This document shows, piece by piece, positions 2,305-64,000 of a stretch of 64,000 nt of DNA. Source of the stretch: Cladochytrium replicatum (lineage: Eukaryota; Chytridiomycota; Chytridiomycetes; Cladochytriales; Cladochytriaceae). Location of the stretch: assembly GCA_025526935.1 (NCBI GenBank), contig JAHLKD010000052.1:303992-367991 (forward strand), written 5' to 3'. A model generated the notes under the pieces. The model searched no databases, was not told the DNA's origin, and saw nothing but the letters and a program-made list of their open reading frames with translations. Every line of letters begins with the position of its first letter. The first letter of the stretch is position 1. Made by a program: the position numbers and the translations under genes.

Positions 2305-3168
2305 GGCGGTAGCGAGTCGAGTTCAGCGCCGTGTTGCGATAAATACAGGCGCACGCTTGGCAAAGTTTAACGCGGTTGGTGATTTTCGCGGGGTTTCAAT
2401 ATTATTATTTGCTGTTGCAGCGTGTGTGACCTCGTGGTGCTTAAAAAATGTGACGGGTTGCAGTCAATCACATCATAAGGGAGACACTGGAGGTGCAGTG
2501 CACACAACTTTGTTGGATGATGCGGTCCGCCATTTGATTGCCTTCGAGGTGGGTTGATTAGCGTGGTGGCAAGCTACAAGAAGGTGTCGCAACCTTATTG
2601 CCACATATGTGAACAAAGCACTTAACAGTTCTGTGATCTCCCACACTGGCGGACTGTATGTACTGGCAAATCAAGCGATTACAGTTGCACAGAGTGTGGA
2701 TATGGTATTCTATGCTTTTGATCAGTGATTATTTAGCACGATTTATACCCGTAAACCTACAAAAGGTACCATGGGCCTCAAACCCTAGCACCATAAGGTT
2801 TTGGCTGGGGTTGAACTGAGTACCCAACCGGACTGCTATTTAGTCTATTTGGTAGAGCTTGTGACTGACTTGTCAGACTCCGCCCCAAGTCTGCAGACTT
2901 CCATGCCGTTTCTCAAACAATATTACAAGCTTGTACGATAATATAATTATGAAAGAGTGTCTGTCTTCACCGTTAGAGTTAATGAACTTGTCCGAGTGCA
3001 ACAGTCATACAATCATGAGGCGAGGAGGCAAAACAAAGTGCAACAAACGAACAAATTGGCAAACATTTTGGGGATTGGGGACGATAAAAAAAGATGCTCT
3101 CGACGAGAGACAAACCTTGGAGCAGAACGCTAAAAATCGTGAAAGCATGCACACGCATATACCAATGG
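2305..3168. other. Intergenic stretch, no gene supported
   Basis: Region between the starts/ends of two minus-strand genes. Only short frames without coding character. 2760-2860 holds a tRNA-like word pattern that does not fold into a cloverleaf (see rejected items). Confidence 0.4.
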
Positions 3169-5125
3169 TTAGGCGTGAAGAACTTTGACATAGTTGGACG
3201 GGAAAGATCCTGACCTCCCATTGCACCTGCCTTCCCACCACTCTGCAGAACTATTCTGGCTCCCCAAAGCTGGCTTTTTGCCATTTACTACCTCAACAAT
3301 ATCCCCGACCGCTAATGGCAAATCACCGCTTTCTTGTGCATCGAACTGGTGCACAACTTCCACCAGGAACGGCACGCTCCCTGCCTTTGACGCAACCATC
3401 GGCTTTTGCGACAGGAATCCAGAGCCGCCTCCGAGAAGGTCTTCCGACTCCCGGATGCTCGACAATCCGCCGCTGCCGTACGAATCGTTTCCCCTTGTCT
3501 GCGCTGATGAGTACGATTGACTCCTGTTCTTACTGATGCTTGCTCCTCCATAACTACTACTCGCCGTGGGCCTGCGCGTCGAGCTGTCAATGCGGGATGA
3601 GTAGTCAGCTGCGTCCGTCGCGTCCCCATCACGGAACTGATCCAAGAACCCTCCGGTCTTTCCATCATCGCGCAACGCCGATCCAGGGTCCATGCTTCCA
3701 TATCGGTCGTTTCTGTTCATACCAGGCGTCGACATCGTCCGCCTGGCGTTGATTGAGGACATTCCAGAATCAACAGAATTGGACCGATCGAACCGTCGGC
3801 CATCGTTGCCAGACTTTCCTTCCGCCGCGTTGCGATAGTAGTCCGCCACATCGTCGGCACCAGAAGTTGATGCACCGTACTCGCTGCCACGTTTACCCAT
3901 GAGCGACTTCATCATTGTCGAAATACGCTTCTTTCCACCACTGCTTCCGAATGAGTCGTTTCTGGATCCACCAAAGCGATCCCTGCCGCCTCCATAAGAA
4001 TCTGCATCCCCGTATCGATCAAAGTCGCCGATCCTGTCACTGCTTCCGAAGCGGTCTGAGTCGTACCGGTCATCGTTTCTATTATTGATACCGAAGCGAT
4101 CCTTCAGACCGCGCATCGGATCCGTGCGAGAGCTGAAATCGTCGCGACTGGATCCGTAATCATCGCGGTTAGATCCGTAATCATCCCGCCCATAATAGTC
4201 ATCCCCCCATGGCTTGGTACGTTCAAAACTAAGTGTGTGATTCATGAAAAGGTTTAGTTTGTTCTCTTACCGTGTTACCACCTCCACACTTGGTCGCCAA
4301 GGTACCGTACAGAGGATGCTCGACCAACGTTGCTGGAAGCTCAACGTTTCCTGACAGAATAGCTGACGGTTTTGACGCCCATTCGTCAATGTAGTAGTTT
4401 TTGTTTGCATTGGTTCGAGCAACGATGGCCGTTCCTTCAAAACTGACCCCAAGGAACAATCCCTTGGACTGTTAAAAGTAAAAGTGGGTGGTGAGTAAAG
4501 CTTACTTTGTAACACAACAATGGGGAGATATGCTGATACCTTGGAGTATGCAAAAATTGGTGCAACATGGATAGCAGACACATCTACCTCTGCATCTCTT
4601 CCTACAGGCCCAACCGACACTAAATACATCGGGACGAGTATTAAAGCTCCCGTTCTCAGGAAAATGGAGTTCCGGAACTAACCATTCATATTAGCCCCCA
4701 GCGTAATGTTTCCCACCGTCTTAAACGCCGAAACAGCGCTAGAGCTGTTCAAGACCATCACAAACTCCACAAGCCCACCTCCGATTTGCGCTCCGCCGGA
4801 CAGCCCTCCAACAGATACACAAGACGGAGGTGTCCAAGCTCCATCACTGGTACGAGCAACTACAATGCCGGACCCTTATAAGTGCATTCCGCGTATTAGA
4901 GTCAATAGCAGTCACACAAAACAACGGATAAAGTATTGTACCAGCCTTAGCGCCAACGACACCAAGTCCAACACGAACGGTCGAGCCGATAACAAGACCT
5001 TTGCAAGAGCGGAGAATCTTTGAGGGAATGATGACTGATTGGTCTGCACCAGTGAACTCGCGCAAGATTTTTGCGGCCTTCCGGCATTCCGCTTCGAGAG
5101 AAGCGGAGAGTGGATTTGCGACCAT
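3169..5125 (-). CDS. YSC84: SYLF (Ysc84) - SH3 actin-patch protein, 5 exons
   Basis: Exons 5125-4942, 4874-4683, 4619-4540, 4468-4271, 4212-3169 sum to exactly 566 codons (565 aa). Residues 1 to about 215 form the SYLF/Ysc84 lipid- and actin-binding domain: start MVANPLSASLEAECRKA, then GLGVVGAKAG joined to SGIVVARTSDGAW, SVGPVGRDAE and KGLFLGVSFEG, all landmarks of the yeast LSB3/YSC84 family. A long linker rich in Arg, Asp, Tyr and Gly follows. The last ~60 residues are an SH3 domain (WWEGRCNGRSGSFPSNYVKV). In yeast the family bundles actin at endocytic patches and binds Las17-type NPFs; that role is carried over by homology. Inside the SH3, 45-48 nt with GT-AG ends near 3260-3305 could be a retained in-frame intron. 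An upstream non-coding or short coding exon is possible. Confidence 0.9.
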
Positions 5126-9465: not shown

Positions 9466-11246
9466 CAGAGAGTTGTAGCATCACCTGCTTTGGTATCAAT
9501 GGGATATACCAACGTGGCGAGTCACACAATCTAAGCGTTACTGACACCTTGTAAGCACACTTTTCTACATCCCGTGCGGTTTAACATTGGTTTCACAACT
9601 TTCTGAAACGAGATTTGATATGATACCGTAGATTCTCTGTTCCTTTCACGCTGTTTAGTGTGTAGCTCCCACAATTTGTTTTGGTTTCTCCCAAGCTAGA
9701 TACCTCCTTTTGTTTCACATGCGGTTTTGTTTTTCTTTTCTTTTCTTTTCGTTTATGTGATATTTCGATGAATACAATCTAGAGAACCCTTCCAACGTAT
9801 TGCTGCTTCAAAAACTGCAATAAAAAAGCACAAAGAAATCAGAAGTTCCCGAGAAAAAGGCGCAGCAGTCAGAAACTTGCCAAAATGATTATCCCCGTAC
9901 GATGCTTCAGGTGAGCATTCGATGGAAGAAGGGCCTGCCAAGAGGGAGCCTATACATGCACAAAAAATAAAGATAGAGATAGAGATAATGCCGCCATGGG
10001 TGTTGCTGCTTAGCACAATTTGACGACCAGTTGCTGAAACACATCTCTTAGCTGCGGAAAGGTGGTCGGTGACAAGTGGGAGCAGTACGTTCAGCTCATT
10101 CAAGGTGAAATGACCGAAGCCGAAGCGATGGACCAACTCGGTCTTCGACGTTACTGCTGCCGAAGAATGATAATGACCCACGTCGATCTGATCGAGAAAC
10201 TTTTGCAGTACGTCGAAAAATGAGAAGGGATCCTTTCTTTACTTCATTTGACGGTTAACTTTTAGCTACGGTGTGCAGAAGAGGCAGGGATGAGAGTGAC
10301 TCGGTTGTTTGGTATTGGATCCATATTATTGTAATACATTCTCGATTTATTTGATCTGGAACCATCTTGCTCATTTATATCTAAAGCTGAGCCGGAAGAA
10401 TACGGTTATAACTATTGCATTTGAAAACTGGTCATTGGCAAGATCCACGTGTGAAACAGGACCACGATGACATGCTGAAAAGTAAGCACACATTTGCTTG
10501 CTATTGACCATGATGAGCAAAGACGAGATCAAAACAAACTGTACACAGAGATAATTGAGCCCAACTCACCGTTGTTCATAAAGGGATCTGAAGCTTGTGC
10601 ACCGCGGGTGTTTTTGATCATCATTCGCTTGTTTCGCCGATCATCTTTGTTGCACGAGCAAGAACCTAAGATCGACGATGAATGCTTGGCAGTTCTGGAT
10701 GAGGGGAGCGAGTGTAAGTGCCCTCCCACAGCTTTCTCATATTTTCACTGTTGTCTTAAAAACGAAGACCAAAGTTGCTCTATCGGCAAGCATTGCGATA
10801 TCCAGATGATCTTTATTGGAGAGGAAAATGAACGCTAGAGTTGGGTGAAAAGACCGAATGACAATTTGCGATCTTAAAGTTAATCAAATGGGGAAAGGTG
10901 CAATTTTCCAAAATAATCGTTCGAAATGATTGGGAGTGAACAATCGGGGCTAATATATGATGGTCGCTTCATTCTACCCCTCTGTGAGCAAATGGGACGA
11001 ACAACAATTCAAACACAGATACCTGTGCACAAGATTTTTGGAGATTCGTTCAAGGGAAACGACCCAGATGCGTTTCCACATAAGGGCTTGCTCGAGAGCT
11101 CACTCAACAGCCCTTCGAGCGTACAAGTGAACCGAAATGTGTCGCCTAAGCCAACTCATCCAACTCGATCCATTGACCAACCATGTCCGCTTTACCATTC
11201 GACAAGTCTTAGCTCTGATATTGCTCCTAATACCGTCAGCGATGAC
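9466..11246. other. Intergenic region with weak coding hints
   Basis: A pyrimidine tract (repeated cttttctttt) lies at 9728-9750. On the minus strand 10240-10005 one frame is open for about 75 codons with folded-protein character ([37 protein letters not shown]), possibly an exon of an unrecognised gene, without a clear start or splice partner. A plus-strand frame at 10494-10838 (about 114 codons) is not convincing. Confidence 0.3.
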
Positions 11247-12370
11247 ATGTCTACACTAGCCCACCACCGAAACGCGACCGTTCTAACAACCATCATCATC
11301 ATCTTTGTCTCGTACGCCTTGACGGATCGCGCAGATTTCGCACGGTATGTTGGTGCACCGATTCTTGCACTCGGAACCATTGTTTTCGGCATGCCGCACG
11401 GCGCGGTCGACCACCTGCTGTTTTACAAACAGTTTGGAAAAATATCGGTCCAATTCTATCAAAGTTACCTGGGTGTCATGGTGGCGTATGTTGCTCTTTG
11501 GGTCATATCTGCCGAGCTTGGATTCGGAGCGTTTCTCTTGGGATCGTTGTACCATTTCGGAGAGGTACGTTTCCAGAATAAGCATGCGGTTATAAAAGCT
11601 GGTGTGTTGATGCTTGCAAACAGGGTGAGATCAGTTACCTACGCCCACTGTACCGTGTCAGACACAGGAATCATCTTCCCATCCTATTACTCACGCGCGG
11701 CCTTCTCATTCTCGGCGCGATCGTTTCAAGCGATCCCTCCATATCCTACCCTATCGTCCAAGCCGTCCTGCGCCAAACACCGCAGTCTCCGATCCTCACT
11801 CTCTTTTCACAAGATGCGGCTCCATACGTCCGCCTCCTCACCCAACTCCCCCACCTCCTCACCCTCCCGCTAATAGCACCACCCCGCGTCGTCGCCTTCG
11901 AGTCTCTACGTTCCCTCGTTCTCGCGTGGCTCTTTACTGCATTAGGACCGATCTGGGGCTTTGGGGTGTTCTGGAACCTGTGGCACTCAGCAGGGGCCTT
12001 TTTCGTCGAGGCAGCATACCTTTTGAAGAGCCCCTCGCATTCAGAAACTGAGACGAACGGGTGGGGTGAAGGTACCGAAAGTGTCAGCTGGAAGGAATGT
12101 TATTCGCTGTACAACCTCGCGATGCCGTATACCTCCGTCGCTTTCACCGGAATGGCTATCTTTTACTTTCTGCTGCGATATGGGGATACTGCAGGCTCTG
12201 GCGCGGCGCTTGGATACGAAGATGTAATGAAGAGTCAGGGGGGCCAGTCGCTGGCATCATGGTTGATCACTGATGGTGATCTGTGGACTGCCTTTGTTGT
12301 TGTCATCTCTGTACTCACTGCACCTCATATGTGGGTATTCCATCTCCTTAGTGATCAAAACAAAGGATGA
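11247..12370 (+). CDS. Brp/Blh-family carotene dioxygenase homologue (2 exons)
   Basis: Exons 11247-11564 and 11624-12370 (59-nt intron) give 354 aa. The sequence shows the Brp/Blh landmarks: GMPHGAVDHLLFY (His51, His56), LYHFGEGEISYL (His103, split by the intron), FWNLWHSAG (His227) and a late TAPHMWVFHLL, within seven or so hydrophobic helices. Characterised bacterial/archaeal Brp and Blh cleave beta-carotene to retinal for rhodopsins, using membrane histidines to hold iron. The Arg-His that usually follows WHS is replaced here by Gly-Ala, so one expected metal ligand may be missing. The upstream frame continues to 10926, but ATG 11247 directly precedes the first helix and is preferred. No rhodopsin or carotenoid gene is adjacent. 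Confidence 0.75.
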
Positions 12371-42644: not shown

Positions 42645-43577
42645 TTTTGCGGAGATTACTGTTTGCGTGAAAAGACAATCAAGCCTCAGAGCGTTCTTGC
42701 GGATTTTCGTTTGACATTTTTTTCAAGAAGGAGCATCTGGATTCTCCAAAAACAGAAGAAAAAAACAGCGACAACACCTCGAAGCGCAAACCATATTTTT
42801 ATCTTCGTGCCAGTGGAAAATTGAAGGTACTATGACTCATCATCGAATATTCTTTTTGTGATATGAGCAGTTTTATTGAAACTGGACACCATCTGAAACG
42901 AAAACAACAAACTCACCACAATGTCAACACAAACGCTTTCTTTTTTTGCCCGTTTCTTTTTTCACTTTTTACATCGGATCCGTTGCGTTGCAAAGATGGC
43001 CCTTTGGTGCAGTTGGATGAAAAGTTTCAAGTTTTGCTAACTATTTTTGAAGAAGCGACTGTATTTCTTTCCTCCAGCTGTCTTAATCAAATGTGAAAAA
43101 AATAGATTCCTATCCCCAACACAACTTCGAAGATTCTCTCGGAGTTAGGACGGTTTACATTATCACATGTGGGAATGTTTGGTGTCAAACTTTCCACATA
43201 AGGTATTCTCTAATGCTTTGGATACAGATACCTTGGACGGTAAAATCCAGACGGACATGAGTGAAGTAGAATCACTTTTAGACAAGATATACTTATCTTG
43301 ATTCAATTTTCTCTTTTCTTGTTTGTATCGGACTTTACTCGTGCTGCCTAGTGTCTACCTTTAAATTGCGATCACCTTAATACATATCCAGGGGAGGAAA
43401 AAGTATTCTTTATCCCTTTGATCAAAACTACCATCACTGAGTTGATATATTCGCAACAGTTGGGCATTCTTTTTAGGGAGACCTTCTCCATGCTAGCGAG
43501 AGACGATTGTTATTGGTTGTTCGATACATGCTCCAAGAGAAGAAGTGCCGCCGTGCAACTTCATCCGACCGTGTCTC
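42645..43577. other. Intergenic, no gene supported
   Basis: AT-rich, with A- and T-runs near 42720-42980. No RNA gene or repeat recognised. Confidence 0.35.
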
Positions 43578-45450
43578 TCACGGCTTGAAGCGCCATCGAC
43601 CTTTGTGATGCTGACTGCTGTAGCAAAAGCATACTCCCGTCTGAATGAAACCATACCTGGAAAAATACCGATGCGGCGGAAAAGTAGTCTGGGAAAGTTC
43701 TTGCTTGACAGAGTGTGCTCGGTCCTTTTTGATCCCATGGATTTTTTTGGGAGCGTTCACTTGGGTCATTGATACCAAAGGTGCCTAACTATCTGTAATT
43801 AAGATCTAACCACGCTAACTTTGATTGTGCGAAGTCCATGGTTTGTTGAATCATTGATCGGTAATCAAGCGACAAACAGTTTTTGCAAAAATGAATACGT
43901 TTCCCTTTTTACAAACAAAGCTGGGCTGAGTGAGTTGGATGGAGAAAACTATAAAAGTTCGTCCCAATTCTTGATCAGATGGTTCAGACTCGCAGATCAA
44001 AATGAACTACATCAAAAACATCAGGTCGCCGCATTTGATCTGCGACGAGGACTTTCAATGCCGCGCCGTGCTTTGGAGAAACGCTTGGAGCATCGTATAT
44101 CCTTCCGACGATGCTGGTAATGTACCATACGCACTTTTGCCATCTTTTGATTTGGTGATCTCTAGCTTTCAAGGGCTGCTACCAGGCAAACAAGTCTCAG
44201 AGGATCTCTGGGGGATGCTCTGCGACTCAGAAGACCATTTCCAAGTCCAGAACGATCGTTACGGCATGAACTCTTGCCCACAACACCGAGGATGTCGGCT
44301 ACCCACGTGAGACAAACCTACACACACCCGAACGAGGCGACACGCCGGCACTTGGAGCAAGAACCCATTCCAAGCTCCGGCCCAGCAAGCTCGTTCGACG
44401 CTTCTCCGGCCCAGACATTCTCATAGACGTTGCGACCAACTCTGAAACCACCACTCCAGCTCACCAACGACGGTGGCAACAACTGAACAACTGGGTCAAA
44501 CACAGAGCACACTTTGAAGGTGAAAAGACAAAATGAGAAGCTGAAGCAAAATTTGTGAGTCTAGTGTTCTTGTTCAGAGAGGAGCATGATCACGTGTGTA
44601 TTGATTTACGGCAGTTGGTGTAGAGTGCACGTTTGACAAAACTAATTTTAACAAACTTTCAACAAAATACAACTATATCATCAGCAAAAAACGAGCTCAA
44701 AACTCTTCGGCTCCTTGGACGACGACGAAGTTCACATACCCGCCGACGACGCTGCGTTCAACGTGCGCGGACGCCCTCTATCGATCTGACGAGGGCACGG
44801 CGGACGTCATTCAAATGGACCTGAAGAGGTCGGTCAAGAAGCGAGGTCATAAAGGGAGGAGATGTCGGAGGAGAGGCAGGCGACGGCGTGAGAGAAAATC
44901 AGGTTGGGCAGGCGGAACGGCGGAACAGGCGGAGGCAAAGGCACACGCGAGGTGTATAGCGTTTGCCATTTGTCTTTGTTTGTTGTCGTCGTCGACGTCT
45001 GTGCCTTCAGGTGTATATAGTTGGATACCTGGAGAAAAGTACATTTTTCTCGAATATAACTTGGAATGTTGTTCTTCTTCCTTAGATAGCAGAGCAACTG
45101 CTTTTCCAATCTAGTAAAAAGGGAGAAGATTCATTTTGGCAAAAGATGTTTGTCTCATGACTACCGATCAATGATTCAACAAACCATGGACTTTACACAA
45201 CCGAAGTGAACGGGGTTAGATCTTAATTACCAATGCTTTTGGGGAGAACAGATATTCCTTTCGTGTAACGGCCCAAGTGACCGCTCCCAACGAAAACCAA
45301 TTGGGTCAAAAAGGACCAAGCACACTCTGTCAAGCAAGAACTTTCCCAGACTACTATTCCACCGCATCGGGATTTTCGCAGTTGCGGTTTCATTCAAACC
45401 GGAGTGTGCGTTTACTACAGTAGTCAGCATCATAAAGGTCAATGGCGTTC
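43578..45450. repeat. Inverted duplication with ~340-bp arms and ~1.2-kb spacer
   Basis: The left arm (about 43578-43917, +) matches the reverse complement of the right arm (about 45112-45450) over most of its length at roughly 80% by eye. Identical words include agtagtctgggaaagttctt and ccatggtttgttgaatcatt. The spacer holds a plus frame with some coding character at 44002-44310 (SPHLICDEDFQCRAVLWRNA). No terminal motif or target duplication was found, so origin (foldback transposon, or inverted gene duplicates) is open. Confidence 0.65.
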
Positions 45451-45667
45451 TCAGACAGTCATACACGAATCCTTCTTCGTAAAGCTTGAAGGAAGGCACA
45501 ACTTGACGATACTCAGTGCAATCTCCCCATAATGTCATTGTATGAAAAGTGGACCCACGATCTAAATCTTTCTTCAGAATAGGACAATCAATATCAAGGG
45601 ACCCACATAAACGAATCCTCCTTCGCATATCTGAGGTTGCGAAGACTGGGCAAACTTGGCCGATCAT
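45227..45667 (-). CDS. Hypothetical 146-codon frame in the right repeat arm
   Basis: An open minus frame, beginning MIGQVCPVFATSDMRRR, crosses the right arm of the inverted duplication. Its arm-encoded part (SLGKFLLDRVCLVLFDP) is matched by the left arm on the plus strand (SLGKFLLDRVCSVLFDP at about 43685-43735), without frame breaks over about 50 codons. Family not recognised; may be paralogous gene remains. Confidence 0.3.
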   Translation of the reverse strand: MIGQVCPVFATSDMRRRIRLCGSLDIDCPILKKDLDRGSTFHTMTLWGDCTEYRQVVPSFKLYEEGFVYDCLRTPLTFMMLTTVVNAHSGLNETATAKIPMRWNSSLGKFLLDRVCLVLFDPIGFRWERSLGPLHERNICSPQKHW

Positions 45668-46617
45668 CCTCTTTTCTTATTAACATTAAACGGCGACTGT
45701 GCAATAAATCGTACTTATTTATTTTGTTTTAACACTTCCTTCGTGAAAGTAGACAATAGTCGTGGTTCCCTATTGCAGCTCTGCATGTAGGGTGACTCCT
45801 TAGTGAATGTCGACAAGGGACGCGACGCGATGTCTAACATGGGGGCTCGACAGATGGGTCAGCGTGTTCGGCGGAGGAAGGTTGCTTGGTTGCTGGCAAG
45901 CGTGATCTGGTCATCCTTGATGTACTTCCGCATGTAAGGTGACTCCTTGGTGAAATTCGAAAGATGACTGCACTCGAAACCTCATGTGAGTGGTATGATA
46001 GATGGTTCCTGGTGTTTGGCAGAGGAAAGTGCTGACAGATCGTTCCTCGTGTTTGGCTGAGGAAAGTTCATCGGTTACTGCAGGGCGACATGCCGCGCAA
46101 TCTTTTCATCATTGACTTGATCTGCAATGTCCTGATCATGTTTCATGCAAGCTTTTGTGACAGTTGACAAAAGCCGTAGTGGCGGAGGCGGTCCGTGATA
46201 AATGGATGCTCTTTCGTGAAAGAAGAAAGCCATCGCGGCTGCCTTGGATTCCTGAGCGTGAAATGCTCATCTATGCTGTCACATGCAGCTTGATGGGCGT
46301 GGCTTTCATGTCAGCCTTGACCTTTTGCATATACGGTGCCGTCCGCAAGAAAGTTAATAGAAGCCGAGATTTGCTCCGATTCTTTAATTGCAATAAACCA
46401 TTATTCATTTATGCCAATCTGCTTTCGGCTATTACCAAATATGGTAATTAAAAATCTGACATGTTTCATGGTAATGTCCACTTGACACAGACTTGACAGG
46501 TTGACAGACTGTGGTTCGCAATTTGCCCCTGACTCTGGCGCTGACAATCTTCTCGTTGTCTTTCCCATTCTCTAACTCAGCTACAACAATCTCTTCGAAT
46601 TCTCGGTTGTTGACCAT
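45668..46617. repeat. Degenerate short repeats, no gene supported
   Basis: The phrase gcatgtagggtgactccttagtgaa at about 45784-45808 recurs in altered form at about 45931-45955 (gcatgtaaggtgactccttggtgaa) and weakly near 45735 and 46200. On the minus strand the units read as (T)FTKESPYM. Old tandem repeat or decayed gene. Confidence 0.4.
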
Positions 46618-53120: not shown

Positions 53121-54819
53121 CACCCTCCCAGTTTTGGGCAACCGAGGTGATCCTGGGGTCAAAACAATGTAATTTGATGCTGCAAATTGAATGCCTGTGT
53201 TTGCACTGCACAACAATGCGTATTGACCAAACAACTGCATGTCGAAGTTGCCAAAAGATTAAATTTGCTCAACCAGTCCTTGGCAAGTGAGCTGATCCAG
53301 GGGTCGATAACTATGTAAGATGATGGTGAGAATCAATTGTTAGACAGCAGATTAAGAATTTTAGTAATTCTCTTTCACACGCCGGCAAAACACACAAAAA
53401 TAATTGATTTAAAGTGAATCTGGCCATTAAAAAATGCTTTGTTTTCCTAGAACTCCCACTGTTCCAACTTATTTGAAGATCTCGATTGCAGAATCCCTTT
53501 CTTGTTAGAATAACTACCCTCAAGAACCTTGTACAGATGGACAGAATAACCTTCCTAGTGAGTGAGCATTACTGTAAGACTGAAAAACAACTTGAGTTTC
53601 GGACAGTGCTGAGACCTTTAGGTTTCTGGGATTTATGGACAATGGCCCAAAAAAGTTACAGATTATAGTGATGATTCAAATAGTTGAAAAGGGAATACCA
53701 AGGAGTTCAGTAGAAGCCAGACCCATCCCCATTTTGTCTACACTTGGTAATAACAATCTCAGAATTCTTCAAATCAAACAATACTAATAATCGGAATTAC
53801 ATTGGGCGAAAAAATATTTAACACCTACAGACACAATAACTCCACCAATTCAAGACGATCACTGCTTTATACTCATCAATATTGAACACCATAGTTACAT
53901 CCCATCACACTCTCCACTACAATCCAATTGTGCCAGAGACTTGCTTCTAAGCTGTTATTGTGCCGTCAAAATATTGGACCCTGCTGGTGCCAGTACATGT
54001 TAGCCCTCCCTTTCTATCAGTAAGCAGTAGTGGAGGCGGCATTAGAGGAGGATGTCCCGATGTCGACCTGTCTCCTGAAAGTAAAATAACCTTCAAGTAA
54101 CTGTCCTTGCTTCTACAGCAATCCGCAAGGCAAAGTCCAAACACTGGGAGCAAGCGAACCAACCTACTGCTTCTGAAATCGTCTTCAGGTCACCCAGTAG
54201 TCTATCTAGGATGATCTGTTGCTATTTGCAACGCGTTCTTAGATCTGTGGTCACGTGTTCTACTTTCAAACCCATGAACATAAATCTGAACAAATCAAAA
54301 ATTAATTAAATTCTAAACAAATCAAAAATTAATTGAATTCTAAACAAAGGAAAGGAAATCCCATTCACCCAACTCTTTCCTCAAATCTCTTTCTATGCCA
54401 CATTTGCGGCGCACACCATGACACCGAAGGCAGTGACAGAGAATGCATAGTATTTGGCTCAAGCTGAGGTTGCATGTCTCAACATCACAAGCAGCAAATC
54501 GATTCATGCTCATGCTTATTGACACCGGCACTCCAGACAATTGGCTAAATAAAAACAGATCATCATGATGGTCAATAGATTTTGGTGGACAGACCTCTAC
54601 AGTTTCTTGACCTTCTGTGATCATAGTTCAATTAAATGCTAAACTACATCCAAATAGTGGCGCTTGTATGTGCCATACGGGAAAGGCATATTCTATGATA
54701 GGATTTTATTTCACTTACAGTAACGTGTACACAAGTATGTGTGTGTTCTTTCCATTGTGGAAATTAAAAACACTACCAGTTGTTGTTAACGTAATAAAAA
54801 CACCAGAAAACTTATAGGA
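53121..54819. other. AT-rich stretch, no gene supported
   Basis: Probably decayed element interior near 53121-53330. A 27-bp tandem unit (aacaaatcaaaaattaatt...) is repeated at about 54292-54345. No coding frame of quality. Confidence 0.35.
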
Positions 54820-54901
54820 CGTCAGCAACAGGATTTGAACCTGTGAGCGTAGAACGCAACAGATTTCAAGTCTGTCTCCTTAACCACTCGGACATACTGA
54901 C
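54820..54901 (-). tRNA. tRNA-Ser (anticodon UGA)
   Basis: The minus strand folds as an 82-nt class II tRNA. The acceptor stem GTCAGTA pairs with TGCTGAC (54827-54821), with discriminator G. The anticodon loop CTTGAAA with TGA sits within a GACAGA..TCTGTT-type stem. A long variable arm (TGCGTTCTACGCTCA) follows, then the T arm CAGGTTCAAATCCTG, which is also the B box. The A-box-like TCCGAGTGGTTAAGG is present. No intron. It reads UCA/UCG-type serine codons. A retroelement tail begins within a few bases of its 5' end. Confidence 0.93.
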
Positions 54902-54958
54902 AGTAAGCACATGTGTATTTGTTGGATAATCAATACATATCATGAAAGTTAAAAAAAA
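54902..54958 (+). mobile_element. Extremely 5'-truncated LINE/SINE 3' tail
   Basis: About 57 bp with the same terminal hairpin and poly(A) as the SINE and LINEs further right: atgtgtatt (54911-54919) pairs with aatacatat (54932-54940), the loop shares gttgga-y-aat with the LINE, and A8 follows at 54951-54958. It abuts the 5' end of the tRNA-Ser gene. Confidence 0.75.
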
Positions 54959-54967
54959 CAACACATA

Positions 54968-55254
54968 GTGGCTCAGTCAGTACGAATCCGACTTTTCGAA
55001 GCTAAACTCCGCGGTTCGAATCCTCTAGGGGTCTGGATTCGAATTTCCTACGAAATGTATCTCTCGCAATATCGTGTCACGTGCAAGTACCGCGCCACAC
55101 CTCCTTCGATTCGCCCTTGCCTTCGCTCCTCTTTCCTACGGCTCGCACGGCTCCCCAAGTACTGAAGATTCCAAATCTTGGTTGAAGTACACGTGGGTGA
55201 CATGTACTGATTAAGCATTGTCAATACATGTTATAACATTCAAAAAAAAAAAAA
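54968..55254 (+). mobile_element. tRNA-headed SINE sharing the LINE 3' end
   Basis: The head has pol III promoter boxes (tggctcagtcagt and ggttcgaatcct, the latter a perfect B box) but does not fold as a full tRNA. A body of about 130 bp follows. From 55138 (acggctcgcacggctcccca) the sequence matches the LINE end at 57668 and finishes with hairpin acatgta/tacatgt (55200-55206, 55225-55231) and A13. Interpreted as a SINE mobilised by the neighbouring LINE family. Confidence 0.8.
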
Positions 55255-57794
55255 CCAATAGTTCGCCGTTGCCCTCCGCTCCCATTGTTGCCGCCGCATT
55301 TAGTGGCCTTGCGACGGAGCTACTTACTTGCTCATAAGCACTATTTAGCTGTTTCGTCCTGTGATGATCCTGATCCTGTTTTAGTTGAGTATTGCCGCTT
55401 GGAGCGTGACCGGCTATCGCGTGAGCGTGTCAAAGCTTTTCGTACTTGGTCTCTTTCTCAGCGAGCTCGAGAGGCTTCTGGCGACAATATGTTTAGTTCT
55501 TCTCCTAGTTCTTTAACCGAGGTTAGCAAAGTTCTTTCCACCGCGCGTAGGTGTCATCAACGGCGCTCAGCTGCAAGTGGTTTATTGTCTGATCCTGCCT
55601 CTTTATCTCATTATCGCAATCACTTTGCCTCCGTTTATCAGACTCAGTTTGCACAATCCTCTGCCAGTGCAGAACACGTTCGTCTACATGCGCTGAATGA
55701 TTCTGTGTCAGTTAGTGTTAGTGACTTTGTTTGTGCTATTAGTTCTTCCCCAAACAACTCTGCTCCTGGCCCAAACCATATTCCAGCTGAGTTATTTAAG
55801 CCGTTAGCTTCTGATGTTGCTATCCTTTTTGTTCAACTTTCAAACGCTATTTTCCGTTCAGGTTTGTCGCCCTCTGCCTGGAATGCTGGCTTGTTCTTAC
55901 CTGTTTGGAAGAATAAGGGTTCTATTGGTGATATTAGTCAGTACCGCCCCATTACTTTAACCAATGTTGATAGAAAAATCTTTGAGCGTACCCTGCTTCC
56001 TATGCTTGTAGCTTATGTTGGTAAACTTGACCCTGCCCAAGTTGGTTTCCAGGCCAATCGTTCAGGTGTTGAGTGTGTTTTTGCATTAGATGCTACCCTT
56101 TGACGAGCTTCCTGCACTGCTCTGCCTTATTGTGTTACTTTCTTAGATATTAAAGCAGCGTATGATACTGTGCATAGGCTTCTTTTGTGGGAACGTCTTC
56201 GTCAATTTCCCAGAATTCCAAACCGTTTGATCTCTTTTGATGAGTATGTTTGATCGTTGTTCTTCTCAGGTTGTTATAGAGAATCGTGCTTCTGATTTGT
56301 TTTTGCTTCCACAAAATCTTTTTCAAGGTTCTGTTTTGTCTCCGTTCTTGTATTCAGTTTTCATCAATCCTTTAGCACAGCTCCTTCGTCGTGAATCCTC
56401 TCATCTTGCTAGGTTTTCTTATAACACTCCTGTTTTCAATTCGTTGTTTTTTGCTGATGACATAGCTTTGTTTTCTGCCACCACTGAGCAAGCCCAACGT
56501 GCATTGAAAATTTGTGAAGATTTTGCTTTAGCTTCTCATTTTGTGTTTTCACCTTCAAAGTGTGCTGTGTTACTTCTCAACGGTTACCCACCCCCTTGAA
56601 GCTTCATGGCTCTGCCCTCCCTGTCGAGGTTTCATTTAGATACCTTGGTCACTATTTTACTATTGCAGGGTTTGATCTTGCTGCAACTATTGATCATCGC
56701 TAAGAGAAAGCTCGTGCCTCATGGCATCTTTTTGCACTGTATGTCTCGTACTTTGGTGGGTCTGCTCCTCGTGTTGCCAGGTTGTTGTTTTTGTCTTTTA
56801 TTAGACCTTCACTTGAGTTTGGTTTAGCACTTATTCGGCCTTCCACTGCTCAGCTTCAGGTACTCGAGCGTTTTTATTATCATGCACTGTGTCGTCTGTT
56901 TTCGTTAGCCCATACCACTTCGCCTGTTGGTTTGTTGCCGTTTGCGCAAATTCCTACTTTTGAGTTCAGGCTGAAGTACCTTCAGGCACGTATATTTGCT
57001 CGCTGGTCTAGTGATTCCAGCCCTCTGTTACCAGCTGCTGTGTTGCAATTCTGTCGGTCATATCCAGTTGGTTATGGTTCATCTCCTTATTTTTCCGCTT
57101 GTCACAATGATCTCATTGTTCCTATGCCTGTTGTGCCCCCACTTCATCCGTTGATGTTGCATTTTCAGTCTTTAGCTGTTGCGCATAATGGACCAATTGC
57201 AGTTTCGTTTGCCCCTGTCCGCAATTTGAAACTTCGCCACCCTTTGTTGCTACCCCCACACCAACATCTCCCAACAGTATGTCTTCGTTTGTTCCTGCTA
57301 TATCGGCTTGGCCGCCTGTTTCCAAACCCCCGACCTTATTGTAGGAACTGTCATGATGACACACAGAGACATGGGCACGCAACACTTCAGAGCCTACATT
57401 TGCGTGCTAGTTTGTCTGCTAGTTTTGATTTAGGCCCGCCTGACGATCCCCGCCTACCTCTTGACATTGCAATTGATATGCTTTCACCACGGCCTTTTTA
57501 TCCTTCCCCTGCTTTTTCCCAGTGGGTTCTTGTTCTTCGTGCACTTAACCGCATTTGGTCAAACTGTCTTGGTTATGAGTTAGTTTTGTCTCCAGCTCCT
57601 GATTGTATCTTGTCTGCTTTTGTTGATTTGGATATGCCTTAGTGTTTTGAAACATTTTACTTTTCCAACGGCTCGCACGGCTCCCCATGTGCTGCCAATT
57701 TACGTGTATTTTTACACTTGTATTTGGATTTTGCACCAGCAGGTGATATGTATTGGTTGGACAATAAATACATATTATGAAGTTCAAAAAAAAA
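55255..57794 (+). mobile_element. LINE copy A, 5'-truncated non-LTR retrotransposon
   Basis: Starts at about 55261 in the middle of ORF2 and ends in A9 (57786-57794). The reverse transcriptase is recognisable: SAPGPNHIPAELFK, WKNKGSIGDISQYRPITLTN, KIFERTLLPML, then LDIKAAYDTVHRLLLWERL, LFQGSVLSPFLYSVFINPLA and the catalytic FADDIALFSAT (about 56447-56480). A TGA at 56101-56103 and frameshifts near 56240 and 56600 break the frame, so it is inactive. The C-terminal part (56782-57642) has a CxxC...H-like cluster (YCRNCHDDTQRHGH). It matches copy B closely where they overlap, suggesting recent amplification. Clade was not determined. Confidence 0.9.
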
Positions 57795-60700
57795 GAATGA
57801 TGTGCCAAAAGACCTGCTGAAAACAAATTGCCCCGTGGTCGCTCCCGTTCTCGTCCCCGATCACATCTGCCCAGTGTCCGGGTTCTTGCTGCTGTGGCTG
57901 CTCCCTCAAGTGTTGCATCTCTGGCAGATCTCCGTGTCGTTCTCACTCAAATGCGATCTGTTTGTGCAACCTTTGATCCGTTGGCAATGGTGGATCCTAT
58001 GGTTGCACATTTGCCGAGGGACACTCCTGCTGAATTTTTTAGTGTTTGTCGTGATATGGCCGAGGATCTGGTGGGTCTCTTTGGGAGGCCGCTGCCGTCA
58101 CCTTCACCTCCTTTTGCCCCTGTCTCCCGCCCTGATGATGTGGCTGCATGCCTCCACTCTAGACAACTGCATGGTAATCCTCCAATTTGGGACAATCTTG
58201 GGAACTCTGGTGCCCCTGGCCCTCGCCCCCCGTCTAGTCGACCTGCCCCAGGTGGACCTCCTGGTCTACGCACTTATGCTGCTGCTGCTGCCAGTGCCCG
58301 TGCCTGTGTGCTTGAGAGTCTCCCCACACTGAGTGCTGAATCTCGTACAGAAGCTGTCAGGACTGCCCTTGCTGGTCGTGACCCCACTTCGAATGCCAGC
58401 CTTCGTGGTCCTTGGCCTGTTATATTCTATCCACCGACCTCTCTGCTGCTGGTCTCCCCACCTGCTGATCTTCAGGCTTGTGTGGATTTGACCACTGTGT
58501 ACATCAAGGACATCATGAGACAGCGGCTTGGCTTTGTGCGGACCATGCTGAGGGCTCTTTTGGGTGATGAGGTGGTGTGTGGTATCCGCCACATCAGTTT
58601 TGTTGGTCGCAACATTGCTTCCTTTATCTGTATTCACTCAACCGCAATTGCTCTCCGTGCGCACTTCTCCACCCAGGAAGCTTCCACTGACAAATCAAAC
58701 CCTGACTTTCTTTGCCGAGCCTCTACTCTGCTTTGGAGCAGCGGGAGGCTGTGGTCAGGGAAGTTGTCCACAAGAGATATGCACATATCCTCAGTTCAGT
58801 TACTGATCCTGCTATTTTCCTGTATGTCCGTGGTCAGCTCCCCATGGATGCTCAGGAAACTGTGCTGGACAGTGCCCGCGGGATTGCGCGTCAGCCTCGC
58901 TCAACCCATCTTCGTCAATGATAAGTGTTCAAGTTGGTACCTTCAATTGTCGAAATTTGAGCTTTGGAGTTCTTGATTCACTGTTTCGTTTTATGCGCGC
59001 AAATCACATTGTTTTTCTGCTCCTGACTGAAACACACCTTTTTCCTTTAGACCTGCTGCCTTCCCCAGTTTTGATTTTTGACACTCGTTTTTCTCCTGGG
59101 TCATCAGGTACACAACGGGCTAGTGTGGGAGTCTTGATCAATCGCAGTCTTTGTAGAGCTTCTGATTTCCATCTTGTTTCTAGTTCTGGTGGCACCTCTC
59201 TATGGTTTGCATTTCGTGGGCTTTTGGTGGAGGGTTTTATTTGCCTCCATGTGGTATTGCTCAGGACCCTTCCTTGAAGAGTTTATTGCTTCACTTCCTC
59301 AACATGTCCTGTCGTCTCCGTGCCCTGTTCTTTTGTTGGGCGATTTCAATGCCCGTTTTTTAGCTACTGGTGATCATTCTTCAAATCGTAGGGGTAGGTT
59401 GTTTGGGCAATTTATTTCTGCCGCTAGTTTCTCTCTAGTTAAGCACCCTTCCTGTCATAACCCCACTTTTTCTTCTCACAATGGAGACTCCATTATCGAT
59501 TTGTTGTTTGTCAATCCTCTGCTTCAATGTGATCCTATTTCTTACATAGTTCATAGTCGTCTAGCCGGCGGCGAGTTCATGCCTTGGGCTTCTGACTATT
59601 TTCCGGTTACAGCTGTTTTTTTCTTTTGCTCCTCCCAATGCCAGCGCTCCCATTGCTGCTCCCCCCCACAAGCGCTGGGCTGCTCATCTGTTGCATGAAC
59701 CTGCTGTCTTTCAAGCAATGGAGGATGTGGGACATTTGTATTTTGATCCCACCCTTGCTGATGTCCATGATGCGCTCAGTCCAATTTTAGAAGCTCCCGC
59801 CTTTGCCCAAATGTCTGTGGATGTTGCACAGGGATGTATTGACTCTGCATTAGATACTATTTTGTCCTTTGTTATTTTGTGTGCTGCTTGTGTCATTGGA
59901 CCCCCAGTTTAGTTCGCCGTCGCCCTGCCCTGCCATTGTTGCCGGCGCATTTAGTGGCCTTGCGACGGAGCTACTTACTTGCTCATAAGCACTTTTAGCT
60001 GTTTCTTCCTGTGATGATCCTGATCCTGTTTTAGTCGAGTATTGCCGCTTGGAGGGTGACTGGCTATCGCGTGAGCGTGTCAAAGCTTTTTTCGTACTTG
60101 GTCTCATTCTCAGCGAGCTCGAGAGGCTTCTGGCGACAATATGTTTAGTTCTTCTCCTAGTTCTTTAACTGAGGTTAGCAAAGTTCTTTCCACCGCGCGT
60201 AGGTGTCATCAACAGCGCTCAGCTGCAAGTGGTTTATTGTCTGATCCTGCCTCTTTATCTCATTATCGCAATCACTTTGCCTCTGTTTATCAGACTCAGT
60301 TTGCACAATCCTCTGCCAGTGCAGAACACGTTTGCCTACATGCGCTGAATGATTCTGTGTCAGTTAGTGTTAGTGACTTTGTTTGTGCTACTCGCTCTTC
60401 CCCAAACGACTCTGCTCGGAGACTGCTCCTGGCCCAAACCATATTCCAACTGAGCTGTTTAAGCTGTTAGCTTATGTTAAGTATTTCGATTGATGGACTT
60501 GGCCAATCCAGTCATTGATAGTACAAAAACACAAACGCCCGATATACAGAAATGTCACTCTTCACCGAGCAACATTTCTAACTATTGAACTAAAGCATAT
60601 AGATGATGATCTATTACGAGTTTGGATACCTCCGGTTATTTCTTCATGGGTTATATTTATTGCGGCCATAGGTATAGTAAACTGTCATTACTTTTCTATC

Positions 60701-61181
60701 ATCCACTTGTAGAAGTGAAGCCCGGATCAGATCAGAGCAAAGGTTTACATATGATTAACGCGTTCGTGGGAATCATGTGTGAGAACAATCCTGTTGAGGA
60801 GAGTTAGATCTCACGCACAGCTTAGCATGATTATGCTTCGCTACGCCTGTGAGAAGAAGAGTCAAACCTTATCGCTGCGATCCAGATCTTCTGGAAGGAA
60901 AAGCCAAAACGACCGTACACTTATTTAGAGCCTGTGGCGATACACACAAGGAGCATTCTCTTGCGCTAGCACTTGTGACTCGCAATCTTCTTTATTCATC
61001 TCTTAGCAACATTAACCCGTGAATTAACAACACACACAACCTGAGGATCCAGACCGCAGCTTTGTTCAACAGCTTATGACGTTGCTATTCCTTTTGTTCA
61101 ACTTTCAAACACTATTTTCCGCTCAGGTTTGTCGCCCTCTGCCTGGAATGCTGGCTTGTTACCTGTTTGGAAGAATAAGGG
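57795..61181 (+). mobile_element. LINE copy B, with ORF1 and endonuclease, interrupted by LTR elements
   Basis: Begins directly after the poly(A) of copy A. ORF1-like frame 57828 to about 58740, shifting into the frame that ends at TGA 58919-58921. ORF2 ATG at 58918 overlaps that stop (ATGA). ORF2 opens with an APE-type endonuclease: VQVGTFNCRNLSF, LLTETHL; after a frameshift near 59270, LLLGDFNARF, SIIDLLFVNP, SDYFPVT. RT sequence equal to copy A runs from 59911 to 60474, is interrupted by a solo LTR (60475-61071), resumes at 61072-61181 (GLSPSAWNAGL, after a short deletion-like difference), and is cut by the Copia element. Frameshifts make it inactive. Confidence 0.88.
60475..61071 (+). mobile_element. 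Solo LTR (Copia family of the right-edge element)
   Basis: 597 bp, TGTTAAGTATTTCG ... TTTGTTCAACA, flanked by a perfect 5-bp target duplication GCTTA (60470-60474 and 61072-61076) inside LINE copy B. About 98% identical by eye to the LTR at 61182-61780, in opposite orientation. A solo LTR arises by recombination between the two LTRs of a full insertion. Confidence 0.9.
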
Positions 61182-61780
61182 TGTTGAACAAAGCTGTGGT
61201 CTGGATCCTCAGGTTGTGTGTGTTGCTAATTCACGGGTTAATGTTTCTAAGAGATGAATAAAGAAGATTGCGAGTCACAAGTACTAGCGCAAGAGAATGC
61301 TCCTTGTGTGTATCGCCACAGGCTCCTTAAATAAGTGTACTGTCGTTTTGGCTTTTCCTTCCGGAAGATCTGGATCGAAGCGATAAGGTTTGACTCTTCT
61401 TCTCACAGGCGTAGCGAAGCATAATCATGCTAAGCTGTGCGTGAGATCTAGCTCTCCTGAACAGGATTGTTCTCACACATGATTCCCACGAACGCGTTAA
61501 TCATATGTAAACCTTTGCTGTGATCTGATCCGGGCTTCACTTCTACAAGTGGATGATAGAAAAGTAATGACAGTTTACTATACCTATGGCCGCAATAAAT
61601 ATAACCCATGAAGAAATACCCGGAGGTATCCAAACTCGTAATAGATCATCATCTATATGCTTTAGTTCAATAGTTAGAAATGTTGCTCAGTGAAGAGTGA
61701 CATTTCTGTATATCGGGCGTTTGTGTTTTTGTACTATCAATGACTGGATTGGCCAAGTCCATCAATCGAAATACTTAACA
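61182..61780 (-). mobile_element. 3' LTR of a minus-strand Copia element
   Basis: 599 bp reading TGTTAAGTATTTCG ... TTGTTCAACA on the minus strand, directly after a polypurine tract TGAGGGGGTG (61790-61781). The five LINE bases on its outer side are AAGGG (61177-61181); the matching target duplication should lie beyond base 64000. Confidence 0.9.
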
Positions 61781-64000
61781 CACCCCCTCAGTCATTAGAT
61801 AGGTACAACCGAGAGTATCACTCAACCGATCATAACTTTCTGTAAATGCTGAAGTTGATATTCTATTGAAATAAAGGTGAGTTGTATGGACATCGCCAGC
61901 CGGTCGTTCAAGATAGTATATTAAGTGAAGACTGACTGACTAGCCCCAACGAGCCCCTGTGTTTAAGGTATAATTTACTTCCAAGAGGTTTAGTTAAGAT
62001 GTCCGCGATCATATCAGAAGTATCCATATGGTGTAACTCCTGATGTTTCTGTTCAACTTGGAGATTCACAAATCTCTCGCGAACGTCCATGTGTTTGGTC
62101 CGTTTGTTGTTGAACAGATTGTTTGCGATAGACTCGGTGGATTGATTGTCTTGCCATAAACGGAGCGGATTGAACGACGTAATTCCAATACCCGTCATAA
62201 GATTTTTCATCCACTTCATCTCACGCGATAGTTCGTTCAGCGCATACAGTTCGGCTTCCGACGACGAGGCTGCAATAGTCTGTTGTCGAATCGACTGCCA
62301 ACTGATTGCCGCATTAGCGAACATTACCACGTAACCGGTTCGTGAGTATCTATCTGCATCGCCCGCCCAGTCTGCATCGGCATAACCTTGTGGGTTGTTA
62401 GCCGAATCAAACATGTAGAGACTGTCGGGTCTTAGCATCGGAGACGTGATACCAGTCCGTGTATAGTGTAAACCGTAATCCCAAGTACCGAGTAAATATC
62501 GTTGTAATCGATAGAGAGCCTTTGATTCTGACTGTCGAGGATCAATCTGATGTTGTGCCAAAATATTGACTGCGTATGAAATATCCGGTCGTGTCTTAGT
62601 CGCCACGTACGATATCTTCATTAACATTGATCGAAATTGTGTTGCCTCGGCATCGGACAGTGTTGGTGTGGTCTCATCAAAGATATATGATTTTGACATC
62701 GGTGTTTTGGTCGGTTTGATGTTGGTACCCCATAAATTCGCTTCTTCGAGAATCTTCTTTACGTACAATGCATTGCTAAGGAAATATCCTTCCGTTGTCT
62801 GCAATAACTCCATTTTCAGAATCCATTTCGCCTTCGAAGTACTGCCTACTGTGAACGAAGTTTCCAAATCGGTCTGAAACCGATGATATGCGTTTGGATC
62901 TGTGGAAAAATGTAGTATATCATCGACATGAACGGTAGTGTGTTCGCGGGTATTATTTGTTGGATTGTATCGCCAGAAATGACAGATGTCTGCAATATTC
63001 CGCACGAAACCAACACTGAGATATTGTTTCCAAAGAGTTTTGTACCATTCTCGAGCTGCCTGGTGTAGACCGTACAGACTTTTGATAAGTCTGCAGACGA
63101 TGGGTCGATTCTGGAAATCTACTCGTCCGAAACCATGAGGGAGTTCGACGTAGTTCTCTTCTTCCAGTATCGCATTGAGATATGCACCCTTGATATCAAA
63201 CTGGAATATGATCATGCCGACTAATGTTGCTAATGCAATCAGAAAACGGATCGTGGACGTTTTCGTAACTGGAGAATAGGTTTCATCGAAATCCAATCCT
63301 TCAATCTGTGAAAATCCTCGTACGACCCAACGTGCTTTGAATCGAGTAATATTGCCATGTTCGTCAAGCTTATATGTGAACACCCATTTGCCCGATAATA
63401 AATTCCGTCTATCAGGTAAAAACGTTTCAGCCCAAGTATTGTTGCCGACTAGTTGTGTAACTTCCTCCTTCATCGCCGCTAACCAGAATGGAGCCTCATC
63501 GGATCGTGATAAAGCCTCACGAAGAGTCTTTGGTGCAGTCCGTATATTTCCATTCGCAATTGGTTGTGTTGGATATGAGGAATCGGCCTTCAGGGTCCAA
63601 TCGATATTAGGAACGGACCGGGTAAATAAGGAATTTTGTTTCCTTTTGGCGTTCGACAAATTTGCACTTGCTTGACGTTTTCGTTTTCTTGCTGCATATG
63701 CTTCGTCGACATCTTCTCCAATGAATTGAAGATCACTTTCGAGTTGTGCATCATATTCCTCTACAGGAGATACGGAAGACAAATTCGGAGATTCTTCAGT
63801 AATGGATTGTGGAGTCGATAAATCAGCATTTGGATCATAATCAGCATCGTCTGGGTCATCATCGTCTAGTCCATGTAAATGTTCAACAACATGCATGTCA
63901 CCGGCTTCTTCTAAGCGGTAATATATGGGGTCGTCGTTATATCCTCATCGATTTCTTCGTCTGCAACGGTAGAAATCGGGAAATTGTCTGAGACAAACTC
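61781..64000 (-). mobile_element. Copia internal region, polyprotein 3' part (runs off right edge)
   Basis: Polypurine tract at 61781-61790. The pol frame runs from about 63896 to stop 61908 (662 codons): the end of the integrase linker, then the RT with KWVFTYKLDEHGNITRFKAR, GLDFDETYSPVTKTSTIRFL, QFDIKGAYLNAILEEENYVE, SLYGLHQAAREWYKTL and the catalytic VHVDDILHFS (the usual Y/F of xVDD is H). RNase H follows with GYADADWAGDADRYSRTGYV, SSSEAELYALNELSREMKWM, LWQDNQSTESIAN, NKRTKHMDVRERFVNLQVEQ and SDMIADILTKPLG. At about 63915-63930 the upstream frame (SDNFPISTVADEEIDEDI) needs a one-base shift to join the pol frame, so this copy may be recently disabled. The remainder lies right of the window. 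Confidence 0.9.

Follow-up and report, generated by a model that had tools for sequence, protein, structure and literature searches.

Two arrangements of retrotransposons lacking long terminal repeats (non-LTR) are established: pairs of a long and a short interspersed nuclear element (LINE and SINE) that share a 3′ tail, and non-LTR elements directed to transfer RNA (tRNA) genes. Tail-sharing pairs include eel UnaL2, zebrafish ZfL2-1/ZfL2-2 and pairs in the CR1, Tad1 and RTE clades, and binding of the stem-loop by the LINE protein has been shown for ZfL2-2 (PMC4176376). Among tRNA-directed elements, Dictyostelium TRE5 inserts about 40–54 bp upstream of tRNA genes in the opposite orientation (PMC5911963, PMC5006619), the protein of the first open reading frame (ORF1) of TRE5-A binding TFIIIB subunits (PMC5911963), and NLTR-A of Dictyostelium purpureum inserts 2–6 bp upstream of tRNA genes (PMC5006619, PMC5911963). 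NeSL-1_TV (tRNA-Pro) and planarian LIN15_SM and LIN25_SM (tRNA-Arg and tRNA-Glu) are likewise tRNA-gene-specific non-LTR elements (PMC4640811). Here and below, statements on these systems follow the relevant passages of the cited papers. The open literature searched, whose coverage leaves out most subscription papers, held no report of a SINE taking both the tail and the tRNA address of its LINE. Here we describe a 64,000-nucleotide stretch of the chytrid Cladochytrium replicatum (the window; contig JAHLKD010000052.1) in which a SINE and a non-LTR element, LINE A, lie in one chain beside a tRNA-Ser gene, end alike and, across the assembly, have the 5′ flank of tRNA genes as a common target.

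The assembly comprises 50.5 Mb in 198 contigs, the window being the end of its contig; loci in the assembly are labelled L001, L002 and so on. From 54903 to 60474 on the plus strand, four pieces follow one another head to tail: a short decayed tail (T1), a complete SINE, a copy of LINE A and a second copy of the same family (LINE B). A tRNA-Ser(TGA) gene, just outside the start given by the initial annotation, touches the chain, which begins beside it, and we regard this neighbour as the key to the chain. The features are as follows.

54817–54902, minus: tRNA-Ser (TGA) gene (ARAGORN; Rfam RF00005, 59.6 bits at 54820–54901), its 5′ end anchoring the chain
54903–54958, plus: T1, a 5′-truncated, decayed LINE A-like 3′ end with poly(A), matching model R1 at 65.3 bits, T1 itself being one of the nine rows used to build R1
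54964–55254, plus: SINE with poly(A), at least 46 genomic matches
55138–55157, plus: SINE 3′ box common to the LINE (sequence identity, genomic pattern search)
55197–55234, plus: SINE terminal hairpin, arms 55197–55208 and 55223–55234
55259–57794, plus: LINE A copy, 5′-truncated, frames broken, with a poly(A) end; corresponds to 2471–5000 of the L087 unit at 97.0%
57668–57687, plus: LINE A 3′ box common to the SINE (sequence identity, genomic pattern search)
57743–57778, plus: LINE A terminal hairpin, arms 57743–57754 and 57767–57778, 12 pairs
57804–60474, plus: LINE B, corresponding to 352–3026 of the L087 unit at 94.9%; repeats D1–D4 and D7

T1 begins within about 10 bp of the tRNA-Ser 5′ end, a layout resembling that of other tRNA flanks. 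The window SINE is 97.9% identical to the majority of 37 rows (overlapping loci unmerged). LINE B, separated from the LINE A poly(A) by 9 extra bases, holds the ORF1 region, the apurinic endonuclease (APE) region and the start of the reverse transcriptase (RT), and is broken off by an LTR-like insertion at 60475.

The target common to LINE and SINE, which the initial annotation did not mention, is the 5′ flank of tRNA genes. Every intact SINE head (an alignment starting in the first 8 bases; 25 rows, 23 places) was preceded, in the same orientation, by the poly(A) of another element or by a tRNA 5′ end. Loci L001–L008 came from a query that included the upstream tail and L009–L038 from a LINE-tail query, which biases them toward such neighbours. 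Among the loci found by the box pattern only (L039–L068), 9 of 9 intact SINE heads lay behind a tRNA 5′ end (6) or the poly(A) tail of LINE D (3), a second LINE family described below.

For an element-blind sample we used the Rfam tRNA model, with a tool that scores part of the candidates, listed the best 62 genes and took the 5′ flanks of 60. LINE A or the SINE started within 60 bp of the tRNA 5′ end in 36 of these 60 flanks and within 330 bp in 45, all in one orientation, antisense to the tRNA. Of the 36 near cases, 29 had their start 5–17 bp from the tRNA and 33 their first aligned base between −1 and 21 bp. When any repeat known from the element loci was counted, 46 flanks had a start within 25 bp and 58 contained one within 330 bp. 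In contrast, no LINE A or SINE start was found within 60 bp in 40 tRNA 3′ flanks, where LINE/SINE sequence occurred further out in three and any repeat in six. With equal settings and no masking, the comparison of 36/60 with 0/40 gave p = 2e-11 (Fisher). It held when matches to the (CT)n LINE start only were dropped, at the cost of L130, L137 and L147 (33/60 versus 0/40, p = 4e-10), when low-complexity sequence was masked on both sides (32/60 versus 0/40, p = 1e-9), and for any repeat within 25 bp (46/60 versus 0/40, p = 3e-16). Two of the 60 flanks duplicate others (L125 and L139), and their removal changes little.

The target tRNA genes represent at least ten isotypes. The 5′ flanks of 5S and U6 genes carried LINE A or the SINE in 0 of 9 cases (seven 5S, two U6; p = 0.0007 versus the unmasked 36/60), drawn from eight listed 5S and three listed U6 matches of which the third U6 was below cut-off, the 5S flanks being near-identical and hence non-independent. 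This points to tRNA genes rather than RNA polymerase III (pol III) genes in general. Some of the remaining tRNA flanks (L108, L117, L121 and L140) show protein-level similarity to more distant LINEs, so that more LINE families probably use the site. Degenerate tRNA-like stretches, possibly old duplicated tRNA pieces, were seen by eye between the tRNA and the first LINE (within ∼115 bp) in L089 and L123.

The initial annotation had drawn attention to the 3′ ends of the chain's elements, and its description held up. The 20-mer acggctcgcacggctcccca occurs at both 55138 and 57668, within a 33-nucleotide match of 91% identity (55132–55164 and 57662–57694). A stem-loop before poly(A) ends all three tails at the coordinates it gave, the T1 arms being 54911–54919 and 54932–54940. 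The change from T-A in the LINE to C-G in the SINE and the G-T wobble in T1 are present as described, and the loop GTTGGA-Y-AAT is common to LINE A and T1. Genome-wide, a 19-mer of the box gave 414 matches compared with 23 for the reversed pattern and the SINE hairpin 123 compared with 0 for its control (both at ≤3 mismatches), and the LINE A-type 3′ arm 370 compared with 8 (≤2 mismatches). The SINE stem pairs at 11 of 12 positions, with one C-A mismatch. T1 had one match in the genome (≤3 mismatches over 30 nucleotides), pairs at 9 of 12 stem positions with the three outer pairs unformed, and folds no better than shuffled sequence (z = −0.28). We considered it as a third active family and rejected this. 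Its single genomic match makes it a decayed fragment or else a family with very few members, and it was dropped from the covariation evidence, to which it would add only a one-sided wobble.

Several tails elsewhere are unusual in themselves. In L026 (1474–1495, minus) an 8-nucleotide SINE remnant (TAACATTC) with poly(A) lies between two LINEs, an extreme 5′ truncation. In L087 (∼30–75, minus; the same place is seen in L063) the LINE tail reads GTTC-A(n)-GTTC-A(n), a doubling such as two rounds of 3′-end copying at initiation would give. A LINE tail in L048 (1501–1587) is folded back as an inverted repeat, perhaps a product resembling that of twin priming.

Judged by its domains, LINE A is an APE-type non-LTR retrotransposon. 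The domain scan covered one copy whole (L087) and two frames of the window copy; in L087, RVT_1 (5.6e-31) and Exo_endo_phos_2 (1.3e-13) lie in separate open frames, ORF2 being broken. The first ORF had no Pfam match. The SINE has a box-A-like TGGCTCAGTCAG (54969–54980) and a box-B-like GGTTCGAATCC (55013–55023), both recognized by eye, and its head gave no Rfam tRNA match at E ≤ 1 (cmscan) that would mark it as tRNA-derived. The two elements may share a 5′ start too (L087, L109, L136, L096 and L041): GACCT stands before CATAG in many SINEs and, in some LINE copies, before the (CT)n run. The proposal of the initial annotation that the LINE is the partner of the SINE is supported by a common 3′ end in hundreds of copies, the same orientation, the same insertion sites and mixed chains; on these sequence grounds LINE A is very probably that partner.

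LINE D, a diverged second family, was recognized by its tail inside chains (400 tail matches compared with 1 for the control). Nine of 11 sampled tails continue upstream into coding sequence that is 41–46% identical to LINE A over a C-terminal stretch of 39–56 residues. The LINE D 3′ end carries a box similar to that of LINE A (GCGCTTCCCTATGTGCTG versus ACGGCTCCCCATGTGCTG) and a terminal stem in the corresponding position. This stem reads GUGUUGUUUAUU/AAUAAAUAAUAU in the L014 subfamily (4 of 150 rows), compared with GUGAUAUGUAUU/AAUACAUAUUAU in LINE A: two pairs are changed on both sides, one has become a wobble and none is lost. Neither a LINE D-specific SINE nor a tRNA gene was found within ∼400 bp upstream of the 11 sampled tails, taken from the 100 listed of 400.

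We then asked whether the terminal stem is conserved as a structure. Model R1, built from nine tails, gave 214 matches in 92 of 189 stretches. The best 150 were aligned, with places seen in two loci left unmerged; 22 of these rows echo the near-palindromic stem on the reverse strand, 72 carry the stem of LINE A and 31 that of the SINE. Copies with stem deletions (L050, L106, L111 and L122/L125) were set aside. A test on single copies would probe dead copies and not source elements, and the test was therefore moved to the families LINE A, SINE and LINE D. As a null, the number of changes per arm was kept and their positions were randomized by simulation; because the structure was already in sight when the families were aligned, the following p values are somewhat generous. 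Between LINE A and LINE D, pairing together with two-sided change gave p = 0.001 for 12 pairs (L014 type) and 0.003 for the 8 basal pairs, and pairing alone 0.002 and 0.005. Across families, two-sided changes affect three stem pairs: in LINE D pair 4 (A-U/U-A) and pair 8 (G-C/U-A), in the SINE pair 5 (U-A/C-G). All 12 pairs form in LINE A and in the L014 subfamily, 11 form in the SINE, and the main LINE D type has the 8 basal ones. Upstream, the two LINEs have a helix GUGC/GCAC where the SINE has GUAC/GUAC; this is one further two-sided change, seen by eye and non-significant when taken alone (p = 0.11). Compared with shuffled sequence the hairpins fold at z = −3.26 (SINE, stabler than 199 of 200 shuffles), −2.25 (LINE A) and −2.42 (L014 type). 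These comparisons support a structural constraint on the terminal hairpin, which looks conserved as a structure. The claim of the initial annotation that stem pairs are kept by changes on both sides draws its support from the families, through LINE D; its own three tails, with one two-sided change (LINE A versus SINE, p = 0.07), are weak evidence for it. The covariation test that it suggested for genomic copies was thus made on families, the aligned copies themselves showing no covariation.

These observations suggest a common route for both elements. LINE A RNA would end in the conserved box, the upstream helix and the terminal stem-loop, followed by poly(A), and its reverse transcriptase most likely begins copying at this box-plus-stem structure. 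The SINE is short, has motifs resembling pol III boxes and bears this 3′ end too, for which reason the LINE A machinery would copy it. Both would be delivered to an address in front of tRNA genes, mostly 0–20 bp from them, each element being oriented away from the tRNA. The copies agree at their 3′ ends and are truncated to varying degrees at their 5′ ends, which fits target-primed reverse transcription; by analogy with TRE5-A, the cue for the target is probably the tRNA gene DNA or factors bound to it. Repeated use of the address, perhaps with insertion into earlier tails, could then give rise to head-to-tail LINE/SINE chains such as that beside tRNA-Ser. We hold this proposal as a whole, copying from the 3′ structure, borrowing by the SINE and delivery of both to the tRNA 5′ flank, with considerable confidence.

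A number of results weigh against it. Inside each family, a substitution in an individual copy alters one side only or destroys a pair, with L037 (G-C to U-G) the sole exception, and covariation is absent at the copy level; this is expected of dead copies, yet it lends no support either. LINE A and the SINE compared directly show one two-sided change and one lost pair, with p = 0.07 for pairing and two-sidedness and 0.15 for pairing alone. A main-type LINE D tail (L029) folds at z = −1.36, 26 of its 200 shuffles doing as well, and for whole 3′ ends the gain over shuffled sequence is modest (LINE z = −1.57, SINE −1.41). Concerning the target, 14 of 60 tRNA 5′ flanks have no repeat start within 25 bp, under masking no repeat lies within 330 bp in L092 or in L147, where the flank consists of a (CT)n run, and in L010 the orientation is reversed, a LINE 3′ end abutting the tRNA 5′ end. 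A clear target-site duplication was found in 1 of 21 tRNA loci examined (L024).

Part of this evidence would suit a simpler history, in which the SINE captured its tail once from LINE A, relaxed poly(A) recognition moves the pair and the hairpin has no role. Ancestry alone can explain the 20 identical bases, and covariation between LINE and SINE by themselves is weak; all tails end in poly(A), which suits a relaxed poly(A)-primed mechanism too, and a main-type LINE D tail folds no better than many shuffles. However, LINE D, for all its divergence, has the same 3′ arrangement and a paired stem in which two pairs are compensated, and pure poly(A) recognition gives no reason for the SINE to retain a hairpin that beats almost all its shuffles, and we consider capture unlikely. 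The stem could also have arisen by chance in sequence that is AT-rich and close to palindromic: the LINE stem can almost pair with itself, R1 matching the reverse strand at E = 0.02, and T1 and a main-type LINE D tail fold poorly. The two-sided changes across LINE A, SINE and LINE D that keep pairs, and the hairpin z values of the SINE, LINE A and the L014 type, speak against chance, which we regard as quite improbable. Least probable of all, in our estimate, is untargeted insertion followed by selection that leaves survivors beside tRNA genes only. A gene-dense genome would, as a general argument, favour survival in safe places, but selection does not predict a start mostly at 0–20 bp, on one side and in one orientation, across at least ten isotypes.

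In the growth of the chains, the first copy alone may be directed to the tRNA, later ones entering earlier poly(A) or several being joined by template jumping in one event, and we give this model a little under even weight. It accords with 46 distinct listed junctions, in which an element starts 0 to ∼30 bp after the preceding poly(A) and a tRNA piece intervenes in L024 only (by eye), and with L102, L099/L035 and L111, in which the piece nearest the tRNA is the more diverged. In L024, however, a repeat of 23–24 bp (approximately the first 19–20 nucleotides of tRNA-Ala plus 4–5 bp of flank) flanks one LINE and precedes another; it resembles a target-site duplication and indicates that a copy entered between the tRNA and a copy already there. 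Likewise, the piece nearest the tRNA is the less diverged in L141 (100% then 93%), and at five LINE-LINE junctions of box-pattern loci (L042, L044, L047, L050 and L055) the upstream copy is closer to the reference; L063 was left out for its overlap with the reference and L053 because a (CT)n start forms its downstream piece. As L024 is the sole such case among the 21 loci, many chains may owe their growth to poly(A) insertion or template jumping. Relative age along chains, tried as a test of growth, gave mixed results on uneven sampling (one locus set was ranked by tail identity) and decides nothing.

Taken further, the proposed delivery of LINE A and SINE to tRNA flanks leads to a view that we find rather more plausible than not: LINE A, LINE D and probably more distant LINEs form, with the SINE, a guild with one RNA code (box, helix and stem) and one address, roughly the 20 bp ahead of tRNA genes, that is used repeatedly. 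If so, the SINE parasitises both the copying and the targeting steps of its LINE, and most tRNA genes carry an antisense chain. Whether a SINE takes only the enzyme or also the target from its LINE is hard to test where LINEs insert almost anywhere; the narrow target here makes every SINE copy a readout of targeting. The same preference in SINE copies would, if true, mean that the LINE protein and not the RNA body carries the address, and the paired LINE and SINE ends form a natural mutant series for 3′-end recognition.

Beyond the chain, an LTR-like sequence of ∼600 bp, in two copies of opposite orientation (60475–61071 and 61182–61780), splits LINE B, with a 110-bp LINE piece between the copies. 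The second copy borders a copia-type pol (61908–63944, minus; RVT_2, 9.7e-49), and the contig terminates inside this element. A large decayed inverted repeat (43591–43745 with 45293–45447, and 43795–43909 with 45116–45230) has LINE-like patches between its arms; 43000–46000 (minus) was considered as another such LINE and rejected, as only short patches and, by eye, no tail were present. Many early matches lay near contig ends, and telomeric or subtelomeric arrays were rejected for lack of support: (TTAGGG)4, the only telomere repeat searched, had 0 matches in the assembly, and 18 contig-end stretches contained no telomere array, several carrying copia or LINE sequence by eye. Other window genes include a Dus3-like and a chalcone-isomerase-like gene and a beta-carotene 15,15′-dioxygenase gene (10917–12370) in two overlapping frames, probably split by an intron; the latter might hint at a rhodopsin-using host.

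Set against the tRNA-directed systems, LINE A and the SINE likewise occupy a fixed window beside tRNA genes, on the 5′ and not the 3′ side. Like TRE5, LINE A is a non-LTR element with ORF1, APE and RT that lies upstream of tRNA genes in antisense orientation; unlike TRE5 at its 40–54 bp, LINE A and the SINE mostly lie 0–20 bp from the tRNA, and the relevant passages on TRE5 mention no SINE partner (PMC5911963, PMC5006619). In distance the closest match is NLTR-A. It has an RNase H behind the RT; none was matched in the 609-residue RT frame of L087, the one LINE A copy scanned whole, where frame breaks interrupt ORF2. SINEs are nowhere mentioned by that word in the NLTR-A paper PMC5006619. NeSL-1_TV, LIN15_SM and LIN25_SM each use one isotype and are discussed with the NeSL group (PMC4640811), while LINE A has an APE-type endonuclease and targets of many isotypes. 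Ty3 and other tRNA-gene LTR elements use the same narrow window near the tRNA transcription start, but Ty3 is an LTR retrotransposon with an integrase and its mechanism differs from that of LINE A (PMC5911963). Like the stringent-type pairs UnaL2 and ZfL2, LINE A and the SINE have a common 3′ tail, and the compensatory 3′ stem-loop of such pairs is found here across three families, though not between LINE A and the SINE alone. In contrast to those pairs, the elements described here end in plain poly(A), have beside them a second LINE family with the same layout, and have a tRNA target in common.

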